Virus record (IMG/VR): IMGVR_UViG_3300021438_000034
Location: 1 to 39,136 of that record
Reading direction: 5' to 3' (one strand)
Length of the DNA: 39,136 nucleotides
From: a virus
Position numbers and translations under genes: made by a program. Position 1 is the first letter of the stretch. Every line of letters starts with the position of its first letter. Below are positions 25,221-39,136 of this stretch, piece by piece. The notes under the pieces are model-generated. The model was not told the DNA's origin. It did not search any database and worked only from the letters and a program-made list of their open reading frames with translations.

Positions 25221-27689
25221 ATGTCAGATAACAGCGTTGAAGTACGGATTGGCGGTGACGCTTCGGATGCTAAAAGTGCAATGTCCGATGCGGCTAATGC
25301 CATTAAAAATAGCGTAAGTGAGATGACGGGTAGCTTGAATGGCCTAGGTTCGGCATTTGAAGCGGTAAAAACCCCATTTTTAATGCTGTCAGCCGTATTA
25401 GCAGGCGGCAAGATTTTCAAGGAGTCGATTGACTCAGTAGTTCAAGAAGCGGGAGAAGTGAAAAAGCTCTCCAATGCTTTTGGCATGACCGCCGAAAAAG
25501 CCAATGAATTAAACATTGCTTTACGACTTGTCGGGATTTCTGCGGAAGAGTACGTCGGCATTGCCATGAAGTTTGACCGTCAACTCAAAAACAATGAGTC
25601 CGGTCTAAATACCTTAGGTGTTGCAACTCGTGACTCCAATGGCAATTTGCTAGATCAACAAACTTTGTTGAAAAATGCCGTTTCCACCATGATGGAATAC
25701 AAGGCCGGCACAGATCGCAATCAATTTGCATTAACCAATTTTGGACGCTCTGCGGAAGAAGCTTTCAAACTCCTTAAACTCAATAACGATGTCCAAGAAC
25801 GTGCCACAGAAATGGCAAAGAAATACGGCATTGGTATTGGTCAAGATGCGGTCGAAGCTGTCAAGAAATACAAGATTGAACACGCCGCCGCCGGTATTGT
25901 CATGGAGGAATTTGGGCAAAAGCTAGGCGAAGCGATTATTCCTGCAATTACCAAAATGAATACCGCCTTTGTTGAGGTGGGGTCGGCTGTATTGCCTTTA
26001 GTCTCAAAAGCTTTTGAAGTTTTTGGAGAGCTAATTGGAGCGATTGGGGAAATTATTGGATCAGCCGCTCAAATCATTGTTGAAATGTTTGATGAAATAG
26101 GTAGAACAGCCCAAGAAATTTTTGGTCAGTCATTGCCAAATGACATGAGTATTTTGCAAGTGGTGATTAATGAATTAACGTCATTAATTACAACCGCTAA
26201 ATTTGTCATCTTAGAGTTTTTTCAGATCATTGGCATGGGAATCGCTCAAGCTTCAATTGCTTGGAGAACTTTCGCCGATGTAGCGTCTAAAGCAATCAAA
26301 TTAGATTTTGCGGGAGCGAAAGCCGCTTATGAAAAAGGCATGAATGAAATGATTGAGGCCTCTCAATCTCATGCTAATAAAATGGTGGAGATTTATCGAG
26401 CCGCCGACAATAAGATCAAAGCAATTTGGGGAGGAGAGCAATCTCAGAAACCCGATGAATCTCCTAAAGCAGGTACAAAAACCTTTGTAAATCCAAATAG
26501 CGGTAAAGGTGGCGATAGTCAATTACAGACTTGGAAAGGCGAATTAGAGCAAAAAAAAGAGGAAGAAAACAGCTTTTTCAAATCGTCTTTAGCGATGGAG
26601 GAGCAATTTTGGACTTCTAAGCTTGCTTCTGTAGCTGGCAATTCCGCTAAAGAAGTGAAATTGCGTCGTGAAATTTCGCACGAGCTATACAGTATTCACA
26701 AGCAACAAGCCATTGAAGAGCGAGCTACCGAAGACGAAAAACTTCAAGCCAAACAAAAAATGGCAAAAATCGAGTTGGATGGCGAAAGGGAGAAATTACG
26801 CCTACAAAAAGAAATGGGAGATATTTCTGACTCTGAATATTTGCAATCCATGTCCGCTTTAATGGACAAGGAATACAACATTCAACTTCAAGCCTTACAA
26901 GACAAAATGGCTCTCTATGAAGAGGACAAAAAGGCACAACAAAAAATTAATACCGATATTGAGGTATTGACCGCAGAGCACGCCAACAACATTAAGAAAA
27001 TTAATGATGACGTGATGCTTGCCAAGAAAAAAGAATACGAGCAAATGATGTCGCCTGTCACGTCCGCTATTGATAAATCGGTAACAGGCATGATTCAGGG
27101 CACAATCACAATGCAAAAAGCCCTCCAAAATATTTTTCAATCGATTTTGGGCGAATTTGTCAGCATGGTTACTAAACGAGCCGCTAGTTGGATTGCTAGC
27201 GAACTTGCGATGACAGGTATTGCTAAAACCTTTAGTGCGATTCGCACCGCTTTATTTGGTGAAGAGGCAACTGCCAATGTCGCCACAAAAGTTGCCGAAG
27301 GATCAGCCGTTGTTAGCGTAAATGCAGGCGAAGCCGCTTCGGGGGCCGCCGCTTCGGTTGCTCCAACACCATTTGTAGGTCCGGCACTTGCCGCCGCCGC
27401 TTTTGCCGCCACTATGGGATTGGTATTAGGGGCTAAATCGCTTTTTTCCGCCGCCAATGGATTTGACATTCCGGGTGGATTAAATCCAGTGACTCAGTTG
27501 CACGAAAGAGAGATGGTATTGCCAGCCGAGCAAGCGGATGTGATTCGTGGCATGGCTTCGGGAGGTGGATCACCTGTTATCAAATTAAACGCTGTACCTA
27601 TGCAAGGTGGTTTTTTCATGATGCACAAAAATGAATTAGCCAAAGTCATTAAAGACTTACACCGTAACGGAAGCTTGAAACTAGCATGA
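25221..27689 (+). CDS. Tail tape measure protein
   Basis: An 822-aa, mostly helical protein, the longest but one in the tail module, directly after the chaperones. It begins MSDNSVEVRIGGDASDAKSA, has hydrophobic helices (PLVSKAFEVFGELIGAIGEI and FVILEFFQIIGMGIAQASIA), long charged coiled coil (500-620) and an Ala/Gly-rich hydrophobic segment (about 680-745). The C-terminus, NPVTQLHEREMVLPAEQADV, is typical for tape measures. It sets tail length and is ejected on infection. Its length predicts a tail of roughly 120 nm by the usual relation of about 0.15 nm per residue. Confidence 0.93.
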   Translation: MSDNSVEVRIGGDASDAKSAMSDAANAIKNSVSEMTGSLNGLGSAFEAVKTPFLMLSAVLAGGKIFKESIDSVVQEAGEVKKLSNAFGMTAEKANELNIALRLVGISAEEYVGIAMKFDRQLKNNESGLNTLGVATRDSNGNLLDQQTLLKNAVSTMMEYKAGTDRNQFALTNFGRSAEEAFKLLKLNNDVQERATEMAKKYGIGIGQDAVEAVKKYKIEHAAAGIVMEEFGQKLGEAIIPAITKMNTAFVEVGSAVLPLVSKAFEVFGELIGAIGEIIGSAAQIIVEMFDEIGRTAQEIFGQSLPNDMSILQVVINELTSLITTAKFVILEFFQIIGMGIAQASIAWRTFADVASKAIKLDFAGAKAAYEKGMNEMIEASQSHANKMVEIYRAADNKIKAIWGGEQSQKPDESPKAGTKTFVNPNSGKGGDSQLQTWKGELEQKKEEENSFFKSSLAMEEQFWTSKLASVAGNSAKEVKLRREISHELYSIHKQQAIEERATEDEKLQAKQKMAKIELDGEREKLRLQKEMGDISDSEYLQSMSALMDKEYNIQLQALQDKMALYEEDKKAQQKINTDIEVLTAEHANNIKKINDDVMLAKKKEYEQMMSPVTSAIDKSVTGMIQGTITMQKALQNIFQSILGEFVSMVTKRAASWIASELAMTGIAKTFSAIRTALFGEEATANVATKVAEGSAVVSVNAGEAASGAAASVAPTPFVGPALAAAAFAATMGLVLGAKSLFSAANGFDIPGGLNPVTQLHEREMVLPAEQADVIRGMASGGGSPVIKLNAVPMQGGFFMMHKNELAKVIKDLHRNGSLKLA

Positions 27690-28267
27690 GCAACCATTAT
27701 TTTCCAACATTGCCGGGATTAAATTGGAGTAATAAAAAGACTCCAATTTGGTCAACCAATATTCAAACAAGCTCCTCAGGCAAAGAGCTGAGAGCGTCAT
27801 ATTTTTCGTATCCAAAATGGCAATTTTCTTTAAGCTATGAATTTTTGCGTGAAAATGGCGAGGCTGAATTACAAGCTTTAATTGGCCTATTTAATCAATG
27901 CCGAGGCTCTTTCGACACTTTTCTTTATTCAGACCCTGACGATAACAGCGTAGTTGATCAAATCTTTGGTATTGGCGATGGCGTAAATACGCAATTTGGA
28001 TTGGTGCGATCTTACGCTGGTTTTGTTGAACCTATTATGGCTGTAAATGGTACGCCTACGATTAAAAAAGCAGGGGTAGTCACAAGCGGTTACACCATTA
28101 CAAATAATGTAGTGACCTTCGCTACGCCGCCTGCTAATGGTCAGCAATTAACTTGGACGGGATCGTTTTATTTTAAATGCCGATTTTTGCAAGATTCAAT
28201 GGAATTTGAACAATTTCTTTATCACCTTTGGACGGCAAAAAAAGTTGAATTTGTGAGTGTTAAATGA
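27686..28267 (+). CDS. DUF2460 distal tail protein
   Basis: A 193-aa protein, MSNHYFPTLPGLNWSNKKTP, with a central FLYSDPDDNSVVDQIFGIGD and GDGVNTQFGLVRSY, ending LWTAKKVEFVSVK. This is the DUF2460 pattern also seen in gene transfer agents (with DUF2163 and NlpC/P60 downstream). It forms the distal tail hub ring. It overlaps the tape measure stop by ATGA. Confidence 0.87.
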   Translation: MSNHYFPTLPGLNWSNKKTPIWSTNIQTSSSGKELRASYFSYPKWQFSLSYEFLRENGEAELQALIGLFNQCRGSFDTFLYSDPDDNSVVDQIFGIGDGVNTQFGLVRSYAGFVEPIMAVNGTPTIKKAGVVTSGYTITNNVVTFATPPANGQQLTWTGSFYFKCRFLQDSMEFEQFLYHLWTAKKVEFVSVK

Positions 28268-29118
28268 AAACTGCAAATTCAGGATTAATCAGTTTGCTTG
28301 CATCAAACGATGAATTTTTGATGGCTGAGTTATTGACGTTTACCCTAATTAATGGCGAACAATATCGTTGGACTACAGCCGATATTGACATTGTTTATGG
28401 GGGTAACACTTATAAATCAGGAAGCTCTTTAATTAAGCGTGGCACGATCAAAAATGTGATTGGCGTTGAAGTTGATACTTTAAATGTCACGCTTATGCCA
28501 AGTGCATCGGACATGATCGGAAATATTCGGCTATCGACCGCTATTTTGAATGTGGGATTTTTCGATGGAGCAAGCGTTGAATTACGCAAAGTTTTTTTAA
28601 CTGACTTTTTACTACCACCCGTAGGCGATTTAATCCTATTTATGGGTAAAGTTTCAGACATTATTGGTACGGGTACGCAAATTGAAATTAGCGTGAAATC
28701 CAAGATGGAAGTATTAAACGCTCAAGTACCACGCAATATTTATCAAGCTTCTTGCATTAATTCAGTTTACGACTCCATTTGTCAAGCAAATAAGAGTGCT
28801 GTCACGGCTTCGGGATCGGTAACAAGCGGTACGGTTTCTTCGATTAGTTCTAATGTGTATGCCAATGATGGCTATTACAACCAAGGCGTGTTGTCCTTTA
28901 CAAGCGGAATTAACGCAGGAATTAAGCGAACTATTAAAAATTATTCAGGGCGTGCGTTCACTTTTGCATTGCCATTACCAAATACGCCTAGCGTTGGCGA
29001 TACCTTTACCGTCTTTCCGGGGTGCGATAACACATTGGCAACTTGTGCGAATAAATTTGGCAACCTAATTCATTTTAGGGGAATGCCTTTTATTCCCGTA
29101 CCTGAAACGAGCATTTAA
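28264..29118 (+). CDS. DUF2163/BR0599-type tail hub protein
   Basis: A 284-aa protein with the conserved N-terminus LLASNDEFLMAELLTFTLIN, an ADIDIVYGGNTYKSG segment and a C-terminus GCDNTLATCANKFGNLIHFR followed by GMPFIPVPETS, diagnostic of the DUF2163/BR0599 family. Four cysteines, CINSVYDSICQ and GCDNTLATC, could bind a metal or Fe-S centre, as reported for the functionally analogous lambda gpL; that is an inference here. It lies between DUF2460 and the NlpC/P60 peptidase with ATGA and TAATG overlaps. Confidence 0.87.
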   Translation: MKTANSGLISLLASNDEFLMAELLTFTLINGEQYRWTTADIDIVYGGNTYKSGSSLIKRGTIKNVIGVEVDTLNVTLMPSASDMIGNIRLSTAILNVGFFDGASVELRKVFLTDFLLPPVGDLILFMGKVSDIIGTGTQIEISVKSKMEVLNAQVPRNIYQASCINSVYDSICQANKSAVTASGSVTSGTVSSISSNVYANDGYYNQGVLSFTSGINAGIKRTIKNYSGRAFTFALPLPNTPSVGDTFTVFPGCDNTLATCANKFGNLIHFRGMPFIPVPETSI

Positions 29119-29519
29119 TGAATGCCGTTGTAAAAGAAGCTTATTCATGGTTGGGCACGCCTTATCACGCTCAAGGACGTATTAAGGGGGCAGGCGTAGA
29201 TTGTGCAACGCTTTTATGTGAAGTGTATGAAGCGGTTGGATTGATTCCGCATGTTGATCCGGGTTACTACACGCCCGATTGGCATTTACATAGATCGGAA
29301 GAAAAGTATTTAGGTTGGTTATTTCAATACGGCACGGAAGTTGATAAACCCGAGGCCGGTGATGTGGTTATTTGGAAAATTGGTAGATGCTTTTCCCATG
29401 GAGCAATCGTGGTTGATGAAAAAACCATTATTCATAGCCATTTAGGGCAAGGCGTAGTTCTTGCAAGCATGAATCAATTTGGCAATCGAGCCGTTAAATA
29501 TTTTAGGGTTGGAAAATAA
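29118..29519 (+). CDS. NlpC/P60 tail peptidase
   Basis: A 133-aa cysteine peptidase: YSWLGTPYHAQGRIKGAGVD then C29 in VDCATLLCEVYEAVG, H94 in FSHGAIVV and a further His in IIHSHLG. Cys, His and a polar third residue form the NlpC/P60 active site, which cleaves peptidoglycan stem peptides to let the tail through the wall. It is placed between the hub and tail tip genes, as in gene transfer agents and lambda (gpK). Confidence 0.9.
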   Translation: MNAVVKEAYSWLGTPYHAQGRIKGAGVDCATLLCEVYEAVGLIPHVDPGYYTPDWHLHRSEEKYLGWLFQYGTEVDKPEAGDVVIWKIGRCFSHGAIVVDEKTIIHSHLGQGVVLASMNQFGNRAVKYFRVGK

Positions 29520-32500
29520 TGGGTGGAATATTTGGCGGGGGAGGACATGCACAGTCGGTAAGTACGGTAGAAAACCGCATTTCCGCTATGCAAATTCAAA
29601 CCTCAAACTACGGCAAAGCAATCAGCATTATTTATGGCACAACCCGAGTAAGCCCAAATCTTATCTATTACACCGACTTTACAGCCATTCCCCATACCAC
29701 CGTAACCAGTAGTGGAGGTGGCGGTGGCGGAGGAAAAGGGGGCGGTGGCGGTGGCGGAAGCACTTCATCCAATACAACTTATACCTATAGAGCCGCTTTA
29801 TTGATGGCATTAGGCGAGGGCGTAGTTAGCGATATTGGCAATATTTGGCGATCTAAGGATAAGTTCGTCATGCAACAAAGCTACGTTACCTACGAAGATC
29901 AAATTATTGGTTACGACGATAACGGCGATCCAATTTATCAGACCGTGCAGATTAATCACCCTGCGGTAAGTGCTTTGTCTCAATTGGGTTTATCGCTTGC
30001 AAATGGCTCGATTGGTCAAGCACCTCAGCCTTATTTAGTTAGCAATCATCCAAGTGAAGCATTGGGATATTCGGGTATTGCGTATGTCTTTGGTTGGGCT
30101 GTAGATTTGCAAAATAGTGCCGCTATGTATAACTATAGTTTTGAGGCTTATGGAAAGCTTCAATACGGTAATGGCATTGTCGATGCAAACCCTAAAGATG
30201 TCATTTATGACGCTTTAACAAGCGGTCAATATGGATCAGGGTTTAAGCCTTCTGATTTTGGTTCATTAACCGACTTTAGCAATTACTGCATCGCTTCGGG
30301 CATATTTATTAGCCCTGCATACGATTCTCAGCAATCGGGTGCGGATATTGTCAAAGATATTGCTGTCATGACCAATTCTGCACCCGTTTATTCAGACGGA
30401 TTGCTTAAGATCATTCCTTATCAAGATGCAACCGTAAGTGGTAACGGAGTTGTATATACACCAAATATCGCACCTCAATATGATTTGAATTGGGACGACT
30501 TTATTGTTCACAATACGGGCGACGATCCTATTAAGATCACCCGTAAAACAAGTGCAGATGCTTTTAATCAGGTTCAAGTTGAATTTATGAACCGAAGCAA
30601 TGACTACAACATAGACATTGCGACAGCAAAAGATCAGGCCAGCATTGAATCTATTGGACTTAGGCCACAGCAAGTCGTTAAATTGCATGGAATTTGCGAC
30701 CCAATCGTAGCAAATAAAGTAGCGGAAAACATTAAGCAACGCTCTTTGTATATTCGCAATACCTATGAATTTACATTAGGTTGGCGGTATGCCCGTTTAG
30801 AGCCAATGGACATTGTGACTTTGACGGACTCAATTTTAGAGTTAAATCGTTACCCTGTTCGCATTACGATTGTTGAGGAAGATGAAACGGGTAATTTAGC
30901 TATTACCGCCGAAGATTGTAATTTTGGCACGGCTTCACCGGCGATTTATCCGCATCAATCAAATTCAGGCTTTGCTCATAACTACAACGCATCGCCCGGC
31001 AATGTGGCAACACCGATGTTTTTTGAGCCGCCAATTGATTTGACGACGAATGGGCTTGAAGTATGGGCGGCGGTGTCAGGATTAAGCGATTCATGGGGTG
31101 GTTGCTCGATTTGGGTATCACTTGATGGGGCGACATATAAAAAGCAAGGTCAAATTTTTGGCGGTGCAAGATATGGTGCATTAACCGCTAATTTAAATTC
31201 TAGTAATTCACTTTCTGTAACTTTGGCGGGTACGGGAGGTCAGCTTTATTCGGGTTCGCTTAAAGATGCTCAAACTTTGCAAACTTTATGCGTTGTAACC
31301 GATGGCAAAAATACAGAATACTTGAGCTATCAAACGGCAACATTGACGGCTAAAAACGCCTATACATTAACGGGATTAATTCGAGGAGCTTATGGCAGTT
31401 ATGTATTAAATAAATTGCCGGGTGCTCAATTTGCTCGAATCGATTCGGCTATTGGTAAAAGCGGACAACTCGACCTATCTTTGATAGGAAAAAAGGTTTA
31501 TTTCAAATTCACTTCATTTAATTCATATCTTGGTAACGAGCAATCACTTGCCGATGTGAATGAGTATGCCTATCAAATAACGGGCGAAATGGTGAAATTG
31601 CCGCCTGATAATGTGCAGGCATTTGCAATAGACATGACCGCCGATAAATTCACTTTGACGTGGAATAAGGTCACCAATATTGATTTAGCTGGTTACAAAA
31701 TCAGGTGGATTAATGGCGATAGCCGTGATTGGGGTTTAGCGACACCTATTCATGAAGGAATTTTGGTATCAAGCCCTTATATTTCAGCCAATAGACCAAC
31801 GGGTTTTGGCACATTAATGATTAAGGCGATTGATCAGCTAGGTAATGAGAGTGTTACACCCTCTGCAATTGTTATTAATTTGGGCGACGCTTTAGTTAGC
31901 AACGTCATTGAAACCGTTGACATAGGTGCTTTAGGTTTTCCGGGCACAATCACAGGCGGTTCGATTGTATCGGGACAAGTTGTTGCAGATGAGCAAGGGC
32001 TTTATTGGAATCCAAACGACACGGCTAATATGTGGCATTTGGACTCCAACCCCATGTGGAGACCTCAAACATTTTCAGAAATGGTTTATGAGGCGACTTT
32101 TCAAGCACCTCCAATGGTCGGTGGTAGTCAATTAACATTGCCCGCCACCATTAATGGCAACAATTGGAAAATTGAATATCGCAGGCTTGGGCCATCTCCA
32201 ATGTGGACTACCGATGCCGAAAATATGTGGAGTACCAATGCTTCATTGATGTGGAATATTCCTGATTATTTGCCATGGCCCGGATCGCTTGTGGCAACAA
32301 TCGACCAATATCAAATCAAAATATCTATTGGATTTGGTGGTACTCAAGGGGTAATTTCTTCATTGGTTGCTAGTTTTGATGTGCCCGATATAAGTCAAGT
32401 ATTTAGCGGAGTTGCCATTTCTACTTTTGGCACTCGTTTACCAATTACTAAAAACTTTTACAACATAAAAGCCGTGAATTTATCTTTGCTTTCCGATACA

Positions 32501-32623
32501 GGCACAGCCTTTATTGCAAAAGTAATTGATAAAAACCCGACTTTAGGACCGTTAATTAAGTGTTATGACGCTAGCAATAATCCCGTTGCGGGAAGTGTCG
32601 ATGCAACGGTTCAAGGCTATTAA
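29519..32623 (+). CDS. Tail tip / central fibre protein (gpJ-like)
   Basis: A 1034-aa protein. Near the N-terminus (about 62-85) lies a glycine-rich loop with two G7 runs. Then follow hub-type domains (SQLGLSLANGSIGQAPQPYL through KPSDFGSLTDFSNYCIASGI, and VYSDGLLKIIPYQDATVSGN), a fibronectin-III-like part from about 695 (VQAFAIDMTADKFTLTWNKV), and a C-terminal beta part with Met-Trp octads (NMWHLDSNPMW; PMWTTDAENMWSTNASLMW). It ends the tail hub genes, anchors the receptor-binding parts and probably carries the DGR-encoded receptor protein. Confidence 0.87.
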   Translation: MGGIFGGGGHAQSVSTVENRISAMQIQTSNYGKAISIIYGTTRVSPNLIYYTDFTAIPHTTVTSSGGGGGGGKGGGGGGGSTSSNTTYTYRAALLMALGEGVVSDIGNIWRSKDKFVMQQSYVTYEDQIIGYDDNGDPIYQTVQINHPAVSALSQLGLSLANGSIGQAPQPYLVSNHPSEALGYSGIAYVFGWAVDLQNSAAMYNYSFEAYGKLQYGNGIVDANPKDVIYDALTSGQYGSGFKPSDFGSLTDFSNYCIASGIFISPAYDSQQSGADIVKDIAVMTNSAPVYSDGLLKIIPYQDATVSGNGVVYTPNIAPQYDLNWDDFIVHNTGDDPIKITRKTSADAFNQVQVEFMNRSNDYNIDIATAKDQASIESIGLRPQQVVKLHGICDPIVANKVAENIKQRSLYIRNTYEFTLGWRYARLEPMDIVTLTDSILELNRYPVRITIVEEDETGNLAITAEDCNFGTASPAIYPHQSNSGFAHNYNASPGNVATPMFFEPPIDLTTNGLEVWAAVSGLSDSWGGCSIWVSLDGATYKKQGQIFGGARYGALTANLNSSNSLSVTLAGTGGQLYSGSLKDAQTLQTLCVVTDGKNTEYLSYQTATLTAKNAYTLTGLIRGAYGSYVLNKLPGAQFARIDSAIGKSGQLDLSLIGKKVYFKFTSFNSYLGNEQSLADVNEYAYQITGEMVKLPPDNVQAFAIDMTADKFTLTWNKVTNIDLAGYKIRWINGDSRDWGLATPIHEGILVSSPYISANRPTGFGTLMIKAIDQLGNESVTPSAIVINLGDALVSNVIETVDIGALGFPGTITGGSIVSGQVVADEQGLYWNPNDTANMWHLDSNPMWRPQTFSEMVYEATFQAPPMVGGSQLTLPATINGNNWKIEYRRLGPSPMWTTDAENMWSTNASLMWNIPDYLPWPGSLVATIDQYQIKISIGFGGTQGVISSLVASFDVPDISQVFSGVAISTFGTRLPITKNFYNIKAVNLSLLSDTGTAFIAKVIDKNPTLGPLIKCYDASNNPVAGSVDATVQGY

Positions 32624-33230: not shown

Positions 33231-33716
33231 ATGTCATTACAAGCCCAATTACAAGCCCTTATTAGCTCGATTGCTACTGATATTAAGGCTTTAATAGCTC
33301 ATCAAGGCAATTTAACTAATCTGACTACTACTGCAAAAACAGACTTAGTAAGTGCATTAAATGAATTAAAAACCGCAATTGGCTCAATCGATTTAACGGC
33401 ATTAATCAGCGATTCTTCAACAACTTCAACAGTTAAAACATATTCGATTGACAAGATTAATTCTCAAATTAGTGCGGCAATTAGTGCATTGGTAGCCGGT
33501 GCACCTACTGCCTTAGATACACTCAAAGAATTAGCCGATGCAATTGCTAGCGATGAATCAGGGATTGCCGGTCTTGTTACTGCCGTTGGTAATCGTATTC
33601 GTTTTGATGCCGCTCAATCTTTGACAAGCCCTCAGCAAATTCAAGCTTGTCAAAATATTGGTGTTGGCGATCCCACAACGGATTTAGCCGCCGCTTACGC
33701 AACTGCTAAGGCTTAA
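33231..33716 (+). CDS. Tail-fibre-type coiled-coil protein
   Basis: A 161-aa Ala/Ser/Thr-rich protein, MSLQAQLQALISSIATDIKA, then LVSALNELKTAIGSIDL and KELADAIASDESGIAGLV. Heptad-like leucines suggest a trimeric coiled coil, and the middle resembles fibre proteins with 'TALDTLKELADAIA'. Its first 21 residues resemble those of the next gene (MSLLTQLQAFISAVGADIKA), so the two likely share an attachment or trimerisation segment by duplication. GGAGTAAACC precedes the ATG. Confidence 0.7.
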   Translation: MSLQAQLQALISSIATDIKALIAHQGNLTNLTTTAKTDLVSALNELKTAIGSIDLTALISDSSTTSTVKTYSIDKINSQISAAISALVAGAPTALDTLKELADAIASDESGIAGLVTAVGNRIRFDAAQSLTSPQQIQACQNIGVGDPTTDLAAAYATAKA

Positions 33717-33719
33717 TGT

Positions 33720-34085
33720 ATGAGCCTGCTAACTCAATTGCAGGCGTTCATATCGGCGGTCGGGGCTGATATTAAAGCTTTAAATACAGCCGTCAACAAT
33801 AGTGGAATTCCAAGTCAGACAGGTAATGCTCGTAAAGTAGTCAAAACCAATGGCACAAGCCTATCTTTTGATTTTCCACAAACACAAAGCAATTCATCGG
33901 GGGCGGTTCCGGCGGCTTCAACGCTTGGACTTGGTGAAGAGTTAATCAACACTTACGACGGAAAAGTTTATTTTAAAAAATCCGTTGGCGGTGTAGATAC
34001 CGTGTTGGTTTTAGTAGGACAAAACCCACTGGGAAGTAGCTCTCCCATGTGGACAGCCGATCCCAATTTGATGTGGACGCAATAA
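33720..34085 (+). CDS. Small fibre/baseplate protein with Met-Trp tail
   Basis: A 121-aa protein. The N-terminus repeats that of the gene at 33231. The middle, GNARKVVKTNGTSLSFDF and EELINTYDGKVYFKKSVGGV, is a beta domain seen in phage head-fibre and tail proteins ('DGK.Y.K'). It ends PMWTADPNLMWTQ, matching the Met-Trp octads of the tail tip protein. Both features connect it to the fibre network. It begins three bases after the previous stop. Confidence 0.65.
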   Translation: MSLLTQLQAFISAVGADIKALNTAVNNSGIPSQTGNARKVVKTNGTSLSFDFPQTQSNSSGAVPAASTLGLGEELINTYDGKVYFKKSVGGVDTVLVLVGQNPLGSSSPMWTADPNLMWTQ

Positions 34086-34159: not shown

Positions 34160-35272
34160 ATGACCGCATTACCAGCAAAATCAGCACTAACTGGTTCAGG
34201 AGTTACAGAGGGCGGCTTTAAGGCCGCACTTGATCAAATCAATGATTATTTATCCGGCCTTTTTGGGTCAAGTGGAGTGCCTTCAGATGCTCGTTCTGCT
34301 TTGGGTATTCCAAATCCTTTTGGTACTTTTTTTAAAGCAGACCCTTCTACGGTTGGCTTTACAAAAACAGGTGCAGGCACAGCAAGCATCAAAGCTGGTA
34401 CTTATGTATTTGTAGGCTCTACACTAGTCCCATTCGCCTCAGCTACTGCGATTACCATGCCAACTTTGACGGCTGGTACCGATTACGCCATTTGGGTAAA
34501 AGACGATGCCACAATTCAGGCAACAACTTCATTTACCTCTGCACCCGGATCAGGCAATTGGAGAAAAATTGGCGGCTTTCATTACGCTCCCGGCGATAAT
34601 GCGGCGGCTCAATCAGGCGGTAACACGACTCCACAGATCAATGCTTATTCATTTTGGGATTTAAACTTTAAACCCGAGTGTCCCGATCCACGAGGCATGA
34701 CATTAGTTGCAAATAGCTTTTGGTCGGACATTTATTTATTGGGCGTTGATCATTTAACTAATGGCACATCAAAATACAACGTCACGATTGCAGACGGTGC
34801 TAGCCCTCCTAAAATTCCAACATTATTTGGTGGTAGCGGTACAAATGCTTATTCTGAATTTAACTGGTGGGAAGCGGGCGAGGTTATGCGTTCATGGGGT
34901 AAGCGTTTAGCTCGTTATGACGAGTTTGCCGCTTTAGCTTATGGCACAACAGAAGCCGCTTCAATTGGCTCAGATCAAAACACAACGCAATGGAATGCGG
35001 CTTATGTTTCTCGTTGGGGTGCTAACCAAGTATCCGGCGTAATGAACCAATGGGGTGCAGATTTTGGCGGTGGTGCGGCGGGGGCCGGATGGGTTAATAA
35101 CACCATTGGTCGAGGTCAAACCTACCAATTGCCTAACGCCGTGTACTTCGGGGGGAGCTGGGGCGACGGTGCTTACGCTGGTTCTCGTTTCTCGGTTTGG
35201 GTCTTCTCTCCGACGTACTCGTACAGCAGCATCGGGGCTCGGGGCGTGTGTGACCACTTGCAACTTGGTTAA
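34160..35272 (+). CDS. DGR target: Mtd-like receptor-binding protein
   Basis: A 370-aa protein resembling the major tropism determinant of Bordetella phage BPP-1. Shared phrases include TASIKAGTYVFV, AITMPTLTAGTDYAIWVKDD, GGFHYAPGDNAAAQSGGNTT, DPRGMTLVANSFWSDIYLLG and the end GARGVCDHL. From about residue 165 it should adopt the C-type-lectin (FGE-like) fold, with the variable surface in residues 326-365. The first 50 residues (MTALPAKSALTGSGVTEGGF) do not look like Mtd but like a siphophage fibre anchor, so this may be a domain swap. AAGGAG lies upstream. It should bind the host receptor at the tail tip. Confidence 0.93.
   Translation: MTALPAKSALTGSGVTEGGFKAALDQINDYLSGLFGSSGVPSDARSALGIPNPFGTFFKADPSTVGFTKTGAGTASIKAGTYVFVGSTLVPFASATAITMPTLTAGTDYAIWVKDDATIQATTSFTSAPGSGNWRKIGGFHYAPGDNAAAQSGGNTTPQINAYSFWDLNFKPECPDPRGMTLVANSFWSDIYLLGVDHLTNGTSKYNVTIADGASPPKIPTLFGGSGTNAYSEFNWWEAGEVMRSWGKRLARYDEFAALAYGTTEAASIGSDQNTTQWNAAYVSRWGANQVSGVMNQWGADFGGGAAGAGWVNNTIGRGQTYQLPNAVYFGGSWGDGAYAGSRFSVWVFSPTYSYSSIGARGVCDHLQLG
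35135..35254 (+). repeat. DGR variable repeat (VR)
   Basis: These 120 bp align without gaps to the template repeat at 35672-35791. There are 15 differences, each at a template adenine (9 A to T, 6 A to G). They change 12 codons: residues 329, 333, 336, 339, 344, 346, 348, 349, 353, 355, 356 and 357 of the receptor protein (Y, S, D, Y, F, V, V, F, Y, Y, S, S). The last 24 bp (ATCGGGGCTCGGGGCGTGTG plus TGAC) are identical and G+C-rich, as expected for the initiation-of-mutagenic-homology part. Confidence 0.97.
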
Positions 35273-35291
35273 TCGGGTCGGCAGACCCGAT
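35272..35291. promoter_or_regulatory. DGR target-site hairpin downstream of VR
   Basis: ATCGGGTC, loop GGCA, GACCCGAT: a perfect 8-bp stem with a 4-nt loop of the GRNA type, 17 bp after VR. Inverted repeats of this size and position are required for efficient retrohoming in BPP-1-type DGRs. It begins on the last base of the receptor stop codon and ends on the second base of the avd start codon, so it also occupies the translation start of avd. Confidence 0.88.
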
Positions 35292-35670
35292 GGAAGTTAT
35301 AAAGGACTACACCAATTCCTATGACCAAATGCTTATTGTGGAAAAGTTTGAGGCGGTATTTGATTATTTATATCCAATCGCACAAAACATTCCCAATAAG
35401 CATGGGGTTGTAAAGGAAATGCTAATAAGAAGTTTGACTACGCAATTAAAGCTATTTCATATAGCAGGTAAATCGGGTCAAATTCAAAGATTAAATGAAG
35501 CAGATGCAGAATTAGCGTATTTGCGTAACTTATTACGGCTTTTATCTAAGCCATACATGAGAGCCATGACAATTCATCAAGTCGAAACATCTTTAAAAAT
35601 GATTGCCGAAGTGGGAAAAATTATGGGTGCATGGGTGGTAAAGATAAAACGTAAGGGGCAGGCTGGGTAA
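35290..35670 (+). CDS. avd: DGR accessory variability determinant
   Basis: A 126-aa basic, all-helical protein: YDQMLIVEKFEAVFDYLYPI, KHGVVKEMLIRSLTTQLKLF and MTIHQVETSLKMIAEVGKIM, ending in KIKRKGQAG. It matches the Avd family, a four-helix bundle that assembles as a barrel-shaped pentamer and is needed by the reverse transcriptase for cDNA synthesis. The ATG at 35290 sits at the end of a hairpin and has no ribosome binding site, so translation may be coupled to the gene upstream. Its stop codon directly precedes the template repeat. Confidence 0.93.
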   Translation: MEVIKDYTNSYDQMLIVEKFEAVFDYLYPIAQNIPNKHGVVKEMLIRSLTTQLKLFHIAGKSGQIQRLNEADAELAYLRNLLRLLSKPYMRAMTIHQVETSLKMIAEVGKIMGAWVVKIKRKGQAG

Positions 35671-35671
35671 A

Positions 35672-35791
35672 AACGCCGTGAACTTCGGGGGGAACTGGGG
35701 CAACGGTGCTAACGCTGGTTCTCGTTACTCGAATTGGAACAACTCTCCGACGAACTCGAACAACAACATCGGGGCTCGGGGCGTGTGTGAC
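35672..35791 (+). repeat. DGR template repeat (TR)
   Basis: This 120-bp copy pairs with VR. In the VR frame it would read almost only Asn at variable positions: 12 AAC/AAT codons and one TAC. Of its 28 adenines, 25 lie in these codons and just three elsewhere (ACG, ATC, GAC), so adenine is nearly confined to positions free to vary. TR follows the avd stop by a base or two; a possible extra AAA codon at 35669-35671 corresponds to CCT in VR. It is transcribed and copied by the reverse transcriptase with random insertion opposite A. Confidence 0.97.
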
Positions 35792-35952
35792 GATGTATAT
35801 TTAATTACTCTGTAGCTGTTACGGCACTATGGGTAGGCCTTTCAAATATGGTCAGCCGGTTCTGTCCTCCCTAGGGAAATACATTGTTGGGTTTGGTATT
35901 ACGCTTGGTAATTAAAGCCAAAAACTCTTAATGAACAGCGTAACCAACTTTT
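35792..35952 (+). ncRNA. Spacer between TR and reverse transcriptase, part of the DGR template RNA
   Basis: No gene fits here. In the BPP-1 system the equivalent stretch is an obligatory part of the template RNA and contains the priming site for cDNA synthesis. Here it holds a 10-bp palindrome TCCCTAGGGA (35868-35877) and other possible pairings (GGGTAGGCC; GGTCAGCCGG). I infer an RNA function from the position and length (161 bp). Confidence 0.55.
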
Positions 35953-36939
35953 ATGAAAAGACACAAAAGGCTTATTGAGCAAATTGCAACAATTGAAAAC
36001 TTAAGAGATGCCTACAAGAAAACCTCTAAAAATAAGAGGATGACTTTTGGCTACTTGGAATTCAAAGAATATTCACATCTAAATCTAAACGCTTTGAGAG
36101 AAGAATTTTTAGATGGTGGTTACAAAATTGGCAATTATCGAGAATTTACGATTTTTGAACCCAAGGCTCGAAAAATATCAGCTTTAGATTTTAAAGATCG
36201 ATTAACTCAGCATGCGGTTTGCAACATTATTGGACCTATATTTGAGCGGACGTTATTGCATAACACTTATGCTTGCAGGCCAAATATGGGGACGCATGCG
36301 GGAGTTCGATATATTCAATCAGAATTAAGAAAGCCAAATGCAACACATTATTTAAAAACCGATTACAGCAAGTTTTTTCCATCGGTTGACCGTCAAATAT
36401 TGCATCGTTTAATTGATCGAAAGATTGGTTGTGAAAAAACATTAAAAATCCTAAGGGAAATTATCCCGATGGATGGCAAAGGCATTCCGATTGGTAGCCT
36501 TACCAGTCAACTTTTTGCAAATGTATATGGCGGCATGATTGACCGTTACATCCATGATGTTTTGGGCTACCGTAGATGGGCTCGTTATATGGATGACATT
36601 GTGATTTTGGGGGATGATCCCGTGAAATTACGAGAAGATTTTTATAGGATTCAATCCTATTCTCAAGAAAGCATGGCGATGAACATTAGTAAATGGTCAT
36701 GCTCGGGAGTAGGAAGAGGAATTAATTTCTTGGGCTACCGAATTTGGGCTACGCATAAATTACTAAGACCCGATTCAGTTACTAGAGCCAAAAGAAAAAT
36801 ATCAAACATGGTGCGTCACAACGATCAAGATACTTTGGATAAATTCCTAGCTTCTTGGGCGGGTCACGCAAAATGGGCGGATACACACAACCTTTTTACT
36901 TGGATGGAGAAGAAACATGAACTTATTACCCGTTATTAA
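35953..36939 (+). CDS. DGR reverse transcriptase
   Basis: A 328-aa reverse transcriptase. Motif A TDYSKFFPSVD supplies D137, motif C RYMDDIVILGDD supplies D214 and D215, and the region-4 signature is IGSLTSQ, the [LIV]GxxxSQ form that marks DGR enzymes rather than retrons or group II introns. The N-terminus KRHKRLIEQIATIENLRDAY and C-terminus FLASWAGHAKWADTHNLFTW closely follow BPP-1 Brt, and there is no maturase or endonuclease domain. With Avd it copies the template RNA, misincorporating at adenines, to mutagenise the receptor gene. It is AT-rich like its neighbours. Confidence 0.97.
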   Translation: MKRHKRLIEQIATIENLRDAYKKTSKNKRMTFGYLEFKEYSHLNLNALREEFLDGGYKIGNYREFTIFEPKARKISALDFKDRLTQHAVCNIIGPIFERTLLHNTYACRPNMGTHAGVRYIQSELRKPNATHYLKTDYSKFFPSVDRQILHRLIDRKIGCEKTLKILREIIPMDGKGIPIGSLTSQLFANVYGGMIDRYIHDVLGYRRWARYMDDIVILGDDPVKLREDFYRIQSYSQESMAMNISKWSCSGVGRGINFLGYRIWATHKLLRPDSVTRAKRKISNMVRHNDQDTLDKFLASWAGHAKWADTHNLFTWMEKKHELITRY

Positions 36940-37159
36940 TAATCGTGAAGATTTAGACGCAATAATTGACACGCCAGCACATGATCAATTTATGGAATAT
37001 CTCAAGGGAAGTATGACTAGAAAGCAAGACACCGCTATATATCCCGATGGATATGGTCAGCCCGGTTACGAAGGCCCTCATATTGATCCGGTATGGACTG
37101 ACATAGAGGACCTGAGCACAATAGTTCGATTTGGTTTTACTAAAGCCGATTTTCAATAA
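36917..37159 (+). CDS. Conserved small phage protein after the DGR
   Basis: An 80-aa acidic protein, MNLLPVINNREDLDAIIDTP, with AHDQFMEYLKGSM, VWTDIEDLSTIVRFGFTKAD. The opening 'L.PV.NR..LDAI.GTP.H..FM..L' and ending 'W..VED.STI.RFGF...DF' recur in small proteins encoded beside tail fibre genes of proteobacterial phages; the function is not known to me. It overlaps the reverse transcriptase by 23 bp and has GGAGAAG before the ATG. Confidence 0.65.
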   Translation: MNLLPVINNREDLDAIIDTPAHDQFMEYLKGSMTRKQDTAIYPDGYGQPGYEGPHIDPVWTDIEDLSTIVRFGFTKADFQ

Positions 37160-39065: not shown

Positions 39066-39136
39066 GGCTACGAACCAAGGGGTCGTGGGTTCAATTCCTG
39101 CCAGCCGCACCAACTATAAGGCCTCCCAGTCGGGAG
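39066..39136. repeat. attR core, direct repeat with attL
   Basis: Identical to 75-145: the 3' part of tRNA-Arg from the anticodon stem, its CCA end and part of the terminator. It lacks the 5' half of a tRNA, so it is a remnant rather than a gene. The window ends inside the repeat. Confidence 0.96.

Follow-up and report, generated by a model that had tools for sequence, protein, structure and literature searches.

What kind of element follows the tail genes of this prophage, and which of its genes go with the receptor rather than with the machinery that diversifies it? By the window we mean the whole stretch of DNA analysed, 39,136 nt in length. Its positions 34160–37159 hold a full diversity-generating retroelement (DGR) of the BPP-1 type, bbp4 homologue included. 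A BPP-1-family DGR on a siphovirus-type prophage is the best explanation of the locus, with a probability of about 0.95. The features of the element are as follows.

34160–35272, + strand: mtd, receptor-binding target protein, 370 aa (PDB 1yu1, PF21916, PHROG 11262)
35135–35254, + strand: VR, the variable repeat in the mtd 3′ end (TR/VR alignment)
35232–35266, + strand: IMH-like 3′ end of VR (role inferred from BPP-1)
35272–35291, + strand: target-site hairpin/cruciform, 8-bp stem, GGCA loop (fits the GRNA consensus)
35290–35670, + strand: avd, accessory variability determinant, 126 aa (NF033474, PDB 4dwl)
35672–35791, + strand: TR, the template repeat (TR/VR alignment)
35807–35948, + strand: spacer (Sp) RNA (Rfam RF03022, Phage_DGR)
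35849–35857, + strand: TGGTCAGCC block in Sp (spacer alignment)
35953–36939, + strand: DGR reverse transcriptase (RT), 328 aa (Brt identity, PDB 8ub7)
36917–37159, + strand: bbp4 homologue, predicted Mtd partner, 80 aa (BPP-1 Bbp4 identity)

The original prediction was of a complete DGR, and each part that it named was found, open, at the positions above; the RF03022 spacer RNA and the bbp4 homologue are additions to its list. Every part has homology to known families (Pfam and NCBIfam profiles, PDB, Rfam), and RT, Avd and Mtd, searched by profile, each gave a match. Mtd matches the BPP-1 Mtd structure 1yu1 over residues 56–369 (E 2e-106) and the profile PF21916 (E 1e-19); with residues 56–370 homologous to BPP-1 Mtd, it is, judged by homology to the solved protein, a C-type-lectin target protein. 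Avd scores 89.4 bits against the NCBIfam family DivGenRetAVD NF033474 (cut-off 80), and matches both Bbp7/Avd (4dwl, E 1e-39) and the bAvd profile PF22296 (E 1e-27). The RT is 62.6% identical to BPP-1 Brt, matches the BPP-1 RT structure 8ub7 (E 7e-143) and the RVT_1 profile (E 4e-14), and contains the predicted motifs IGSLTSQ and YMDD.

How closely does the arrangement follow that of BPP-1? The gene order mtd–avd–TR–brt and all the parts are the same; avd sits between the target gene and TR, as in BPP-1-type DGRs; and the bbp4 homologue begins within the RT gene, sharing its last 23 nt, just as bbp4 overlaps brt in BPP-1. All the defining features of the BPP-1 type that could be examined are present, so that the assignment to this type stands. 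The element belongs to a familiar DGR system, of which it is an unremarkable if very complete example.

The target-site hairpin, ATCGGGTC-GGCA-GACCCGAT, begins 17 nt downstream of the VR end. The hairpins of phage DGRs are reported to have stems of 7–10 bp and GRNA loops and to lie 4–34 bp from VR; in BPP-1, the stem structure and the loop sequence are each required (PMC3240598). At 8 bp, GGCA and 17 nt the window hairpin falls within these ranges. Its geometry is that of BPP-1, but the BPP-1 loop is GAAA and the stem sequence differs; with GC pairs at 5/8 positions, below BPP-1's, the stem counts against the best explanation. The relatives L005 (ATCGGTGC-GGCA-GCACCGAT) and L176 (ATTGGGTC-GATA-GACCCAAT) keep the stem pairing with changed bases. 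Unlike most other relatives, L011, L013 and L015–L017 keep a GAAA loop after VR with a stem that barely pairs.

Where might cDNA synthesis begin and end? The spacer RNA matches RF03022 at 80.8 bits (gathering threshold 50), as do the spacers of all 12 relatives tried, and both it and its priming block resemble those of BPP-1. The TGGTCAGCC block is nearly invariant among the aligned spacers (67 loci and the BPP-1 record). Within it, A35854 aligns with the priming adenine of BPP-1 Sp, which we take to be A56. From this alignment we infer that A35854 is the putative cDNA-priming adenine of the window Sp; an internal spacer adenine is reported to prime cDNA (PMC12875486). At the other end, a cDNA-termination motif has been reported at the avd 3′ end (PMC12875486). 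We assessed this end by codon entropy, a plain fixed-motif search having proved too strict. At the end of avd the DNA itself is conserved: the codons of the last glycines have entropies of 0.46 and 0.73 bits, against 1.67–1.93 bits for the remaining conserved glycines. This synonymous conservation is in line with the reported motif.

By homology to BPP-1, the avd–TR–Sp RNA would bind RT and Avd, and A35854 would prime a cDNA that extends into TR from the TR 3′ end, adenines being copied with errors on the way. This cDNA would then take the place of VR in mtd, where the IMH and the hairpin mark the target, and the tail receptor would be altered at about 13 codons.

If the machinery is intact, does it still home? 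TR and VR align without gaps over 120 nt and part ways past 35254; a second VR, sought elsewhere in the window, was not found. The prediction that the two repeats differ at template adenines only was borne out, 15/15 differences lying at a TR A and none elsewhere in the 120 nt. These changes alter 11 of the 12 AAY-derived codons and one TAC codon. Across 67 loci, the window included, VR departs from TR at 52.8% of adenines and at 0.3%, 0.4% and 2.4% of C, G and T, respectively. Among close relatives VR turns over while TR stays constant. Of 15 close pairs, 14 have 0–1 differences in TR and a VR that differs at 12–19 of the A positions, with 0–4 VR differences outside them; the remaining pair has only two VR differences at adenine positions. 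Between L039 and L040 there are 22 differences in VR, against two in the other 2.7 kb. Turnover is not universal, for L006/L007 and L009/L010 are identical over the whole compared stretch. Since most near-identical relatives combine a constant TR with a VR that varies under the TR adenines, the BPP-1-type DGR family is, by this record of VR turnover, active.

The window copy, too, probably homes today; the prediction that it looks active has indirect support, from its intact parts and from the VR variation under a constant TR in its relatives. It is unlikely that the cassette is intact in sequence yet silent, its VR an old fixed variant. A single VR sequence is known for the window element, and relatives with deletions in the machinery exist (L101, L110, L125), as a silent cassette would allow; but every gene is open and conserved, the A-specificity is perfect, and close relatives show VR variation. 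An ordinary duplication with its adenine pattern due to chance has a negligible probability, and is refuted by the adenine bias (random placement on the 28 A among 120 TR bases would give 15/15 with P about 8e-12) together with the dedicated RT, Avd and Sp RNA that accompany the repeats.

What carries the element? The features outside it that bear on this question are as follows.

45–121, + strand: tRNA-Arg(ACG), integration site
75–145, + strand: attL copy of a 71-bp direct repeat
204–1262, − strand: integrase (PHROG 1)
25221–32623, + strand: siphovirus-type tail genes (tape measure, DUF2460, hub, NlpC/P60, Rcc01698/J-like tip)
39066–39136, + strand: attR copy of the 71-bp direct repeat, at the record end

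The tape measure and tip genes, the integrase and the 71-bp repeats at tRNA-Arg agree with the predicted siphovirus-type prophage, as judged by gene content. The window, an IMG/VR virus record, also encodes a terminase and a portal; it gave no match to a sheath or to a podoviral portal. Matches of 96–98% to its first ~125 bases come from five genomes, some of which belong to a single Burkholderiales genus (that of G434), and the host probably belongs to this genus, whose genomes are of ~2 Mb. Genome G539 of the same genus carries a sibling prophage element, L176, with an RT 80% and an Mtd 87% identical to those of the window, the same hairpin plan, and 13/13 TR/VR differences at a TR A. The sibling is a mosaic: its tail-fibre-like genes are 86–88% identical to those of the window, like mtd at 87%, but avd is only 60% identical.

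BPP-1 is a podovirus, whereas the window carrier is of siphovirus type. Is this setting exceptional? The original prediction had implied as much, and here it finds no support. Siphoviral tip genes are frequent in related records: the tip PF13550 occurs in 10/34 records, the window included, as against the podoviral portal PF12236 in 4/32 and a sheath in 1/32, although many of these records are fragments, so that a missing gene says little. The RT tree places the window with L003–L005 (100/94), and a siphoviral tip is present in three of these four rows; podoviral portals occur in the sister clade (95/90), and BPP-1 is placed away from both. A single origin of siphoviral carriers is unsupported, siphoviral-tip and podoviral-portal carriers being interleaved on this tree, most rows of which are untyped for tail and the deep forks of which are weak. 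In one 98-kb contig with a contractile-sheath gene, L052, Mtd is matched several times, and a single TR has more than one candidate VR.

A paper of 2012 on the kappa prophage of Vibrio cholerae described the transfer of such a cassette from one kind of phage to another (PMC3521204). In strain HE-09 an unrelated phage carries a 2.9-kb mtd(part)–VR–avd–TR–RT unit, joined inside the receptor gene such that a tail-fibre gene is fused to mtd; bbp4 is not mentioned in the main text (PMC3521204). Kappa differs from the window in both phage and host. A metagenomic survey has collected more than 30,000 DGRs, and its phage DGRs are, like that of the window, phage-borne with a tail target and a C-type-lectin variable domain (PMC8144416). 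Given the tip genes of related records and the published transfer, the siphovirus setting of this DGR is not exceptional.

Where was the cassette joined to the window phage? The N-terminal ~55 aa of the window Mtd have no counterpart in BPP-1 Mtd, being replaced in the window, and gave no match in other phage records at E 0.01. When Mtd N-termini were compared they were found to vary from one phage to another. Since they differ in this way, the cassette junction appears to lie inside mtd, at about residue 55, as in the kappa prophage. Two short tail-fibre-like genes (33231–34085) lie upstream of mtd.

What role might be played by the gene at the far end of the element? The window Bbp4 is 69% identical to BPP-1 Bbp4, and a relative of bbp4 directly follows RT in 83/83 loci with enough sequence, usually overlapping the RT end. 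Such genes come in a short form of ~80 aa and a long form of ~160 aa (L003–L087), some long forms having an extra C-terminal domain that matches PHROG 6034. The short form gave no match in Pfam, PHROGs or NCBIfam at E 0.1 and no significant profile match in the PDB, and Foldseek found no fold similar to its AlphaFold model (pLDDT 86.8). This ~80-aa gene is uncatalogued, in that no family in the libraries searched matches it.

How does bbp4 behave where RT is missing? To address this question we took the best 80 loci of a profile scan with Bbp4 alone. Nineteen of them lack a full RT, and 18 of the 19 have enough sequence to be informative. In 18/18 of these informative loci, which near-copies reduce to about 13 distinct sequences, an mtd homologue lies near bbp4; it adjoins bbp4, or only a DGR remnant intervenes (L101, L125). 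A search for RT elsewhere in the 18 records, several of which are fragments, found none beyond the L101 remnant. The relics differ in extent. L101 retains the hairpin, avd and the TR start; L125 the hairpin and most of avd; and L110 the hairpin start, followed directly by the final RT codons. Read from these relics, L101, L110 and L125 are three deletions of the mutator in which mtd and bbp4 were kept.

The RT-less receptors retain a mark of the former template. At the DGR-variable positions 135/144 codons end in C or T, compared with 274/456 at neighbouring positions (p 1e-16, a value that is too small, as related and hence non-independent sequences are included). Such a bias fits descent from AAY template codons.

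Two further arrangements lack RT. In L153–L156 a repeated ~1.2-kb stretch, 85% identical, spans the mtd region, and the VR region is identical in the four records. In L134 (3001–4229) the bbp4 homologue precedes the mtd homologue, and there is no RT in the record.

Because bbp4 stays beside mtd where RT has been lost, Bbp4 goes with Mtd, and is probably its partner rather than an enzyme of the DGR. That it instead serves the DGR, as a second accessory protein that assists RT or cDNA integration, is an improbable reading. Its constant place directly after RT would suit such a role; but it is kept by mtd in all the informative RT-deficient loci, those with relics of avd–TR–RT included, and published accounts have the BPP-1 DGR work with a core of four, namely bRT, Avd, TR and VR (PMC12875486). 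For Bbp4 as the partner of Mtd, the linkage leads us to favour, with some reserve, an assembly chaperone. We conclude from these loci that the mutator block has been gained into, or lost from, an mtd–bbp4 pair. Somewhat better than even, in our estimate, are the prospects of a broader reading: that the BPP-1-type unit is a two-gene receptor module, mtd–bbp4, in which Bbp4 is a constant, as yet unnamed partner of Mtd, and into which avd–TR–Sp–RT was inserted and from which it was repeatedly deleted, leaving frozen receptors with a fossil signature of adenine mutagenesis.

With the window, a siphovirus-type prophage, one more well-preserved DGR of the BPP-1 type joins those known. What is new is that an overlooked small gene constantly accompanies mtd, even without the mutator, and this linkage is the part worth following. 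Present in the model phage BPP-1, where it has no name but bbp4, the gene is the constant companion of a hypervariable receptor. If Bbp4 is a chaperone, it could help to account for the amount of variation that a single scaffold can bear, and the natural mutator deletions offer a route to study why phages turn hypermutation off.
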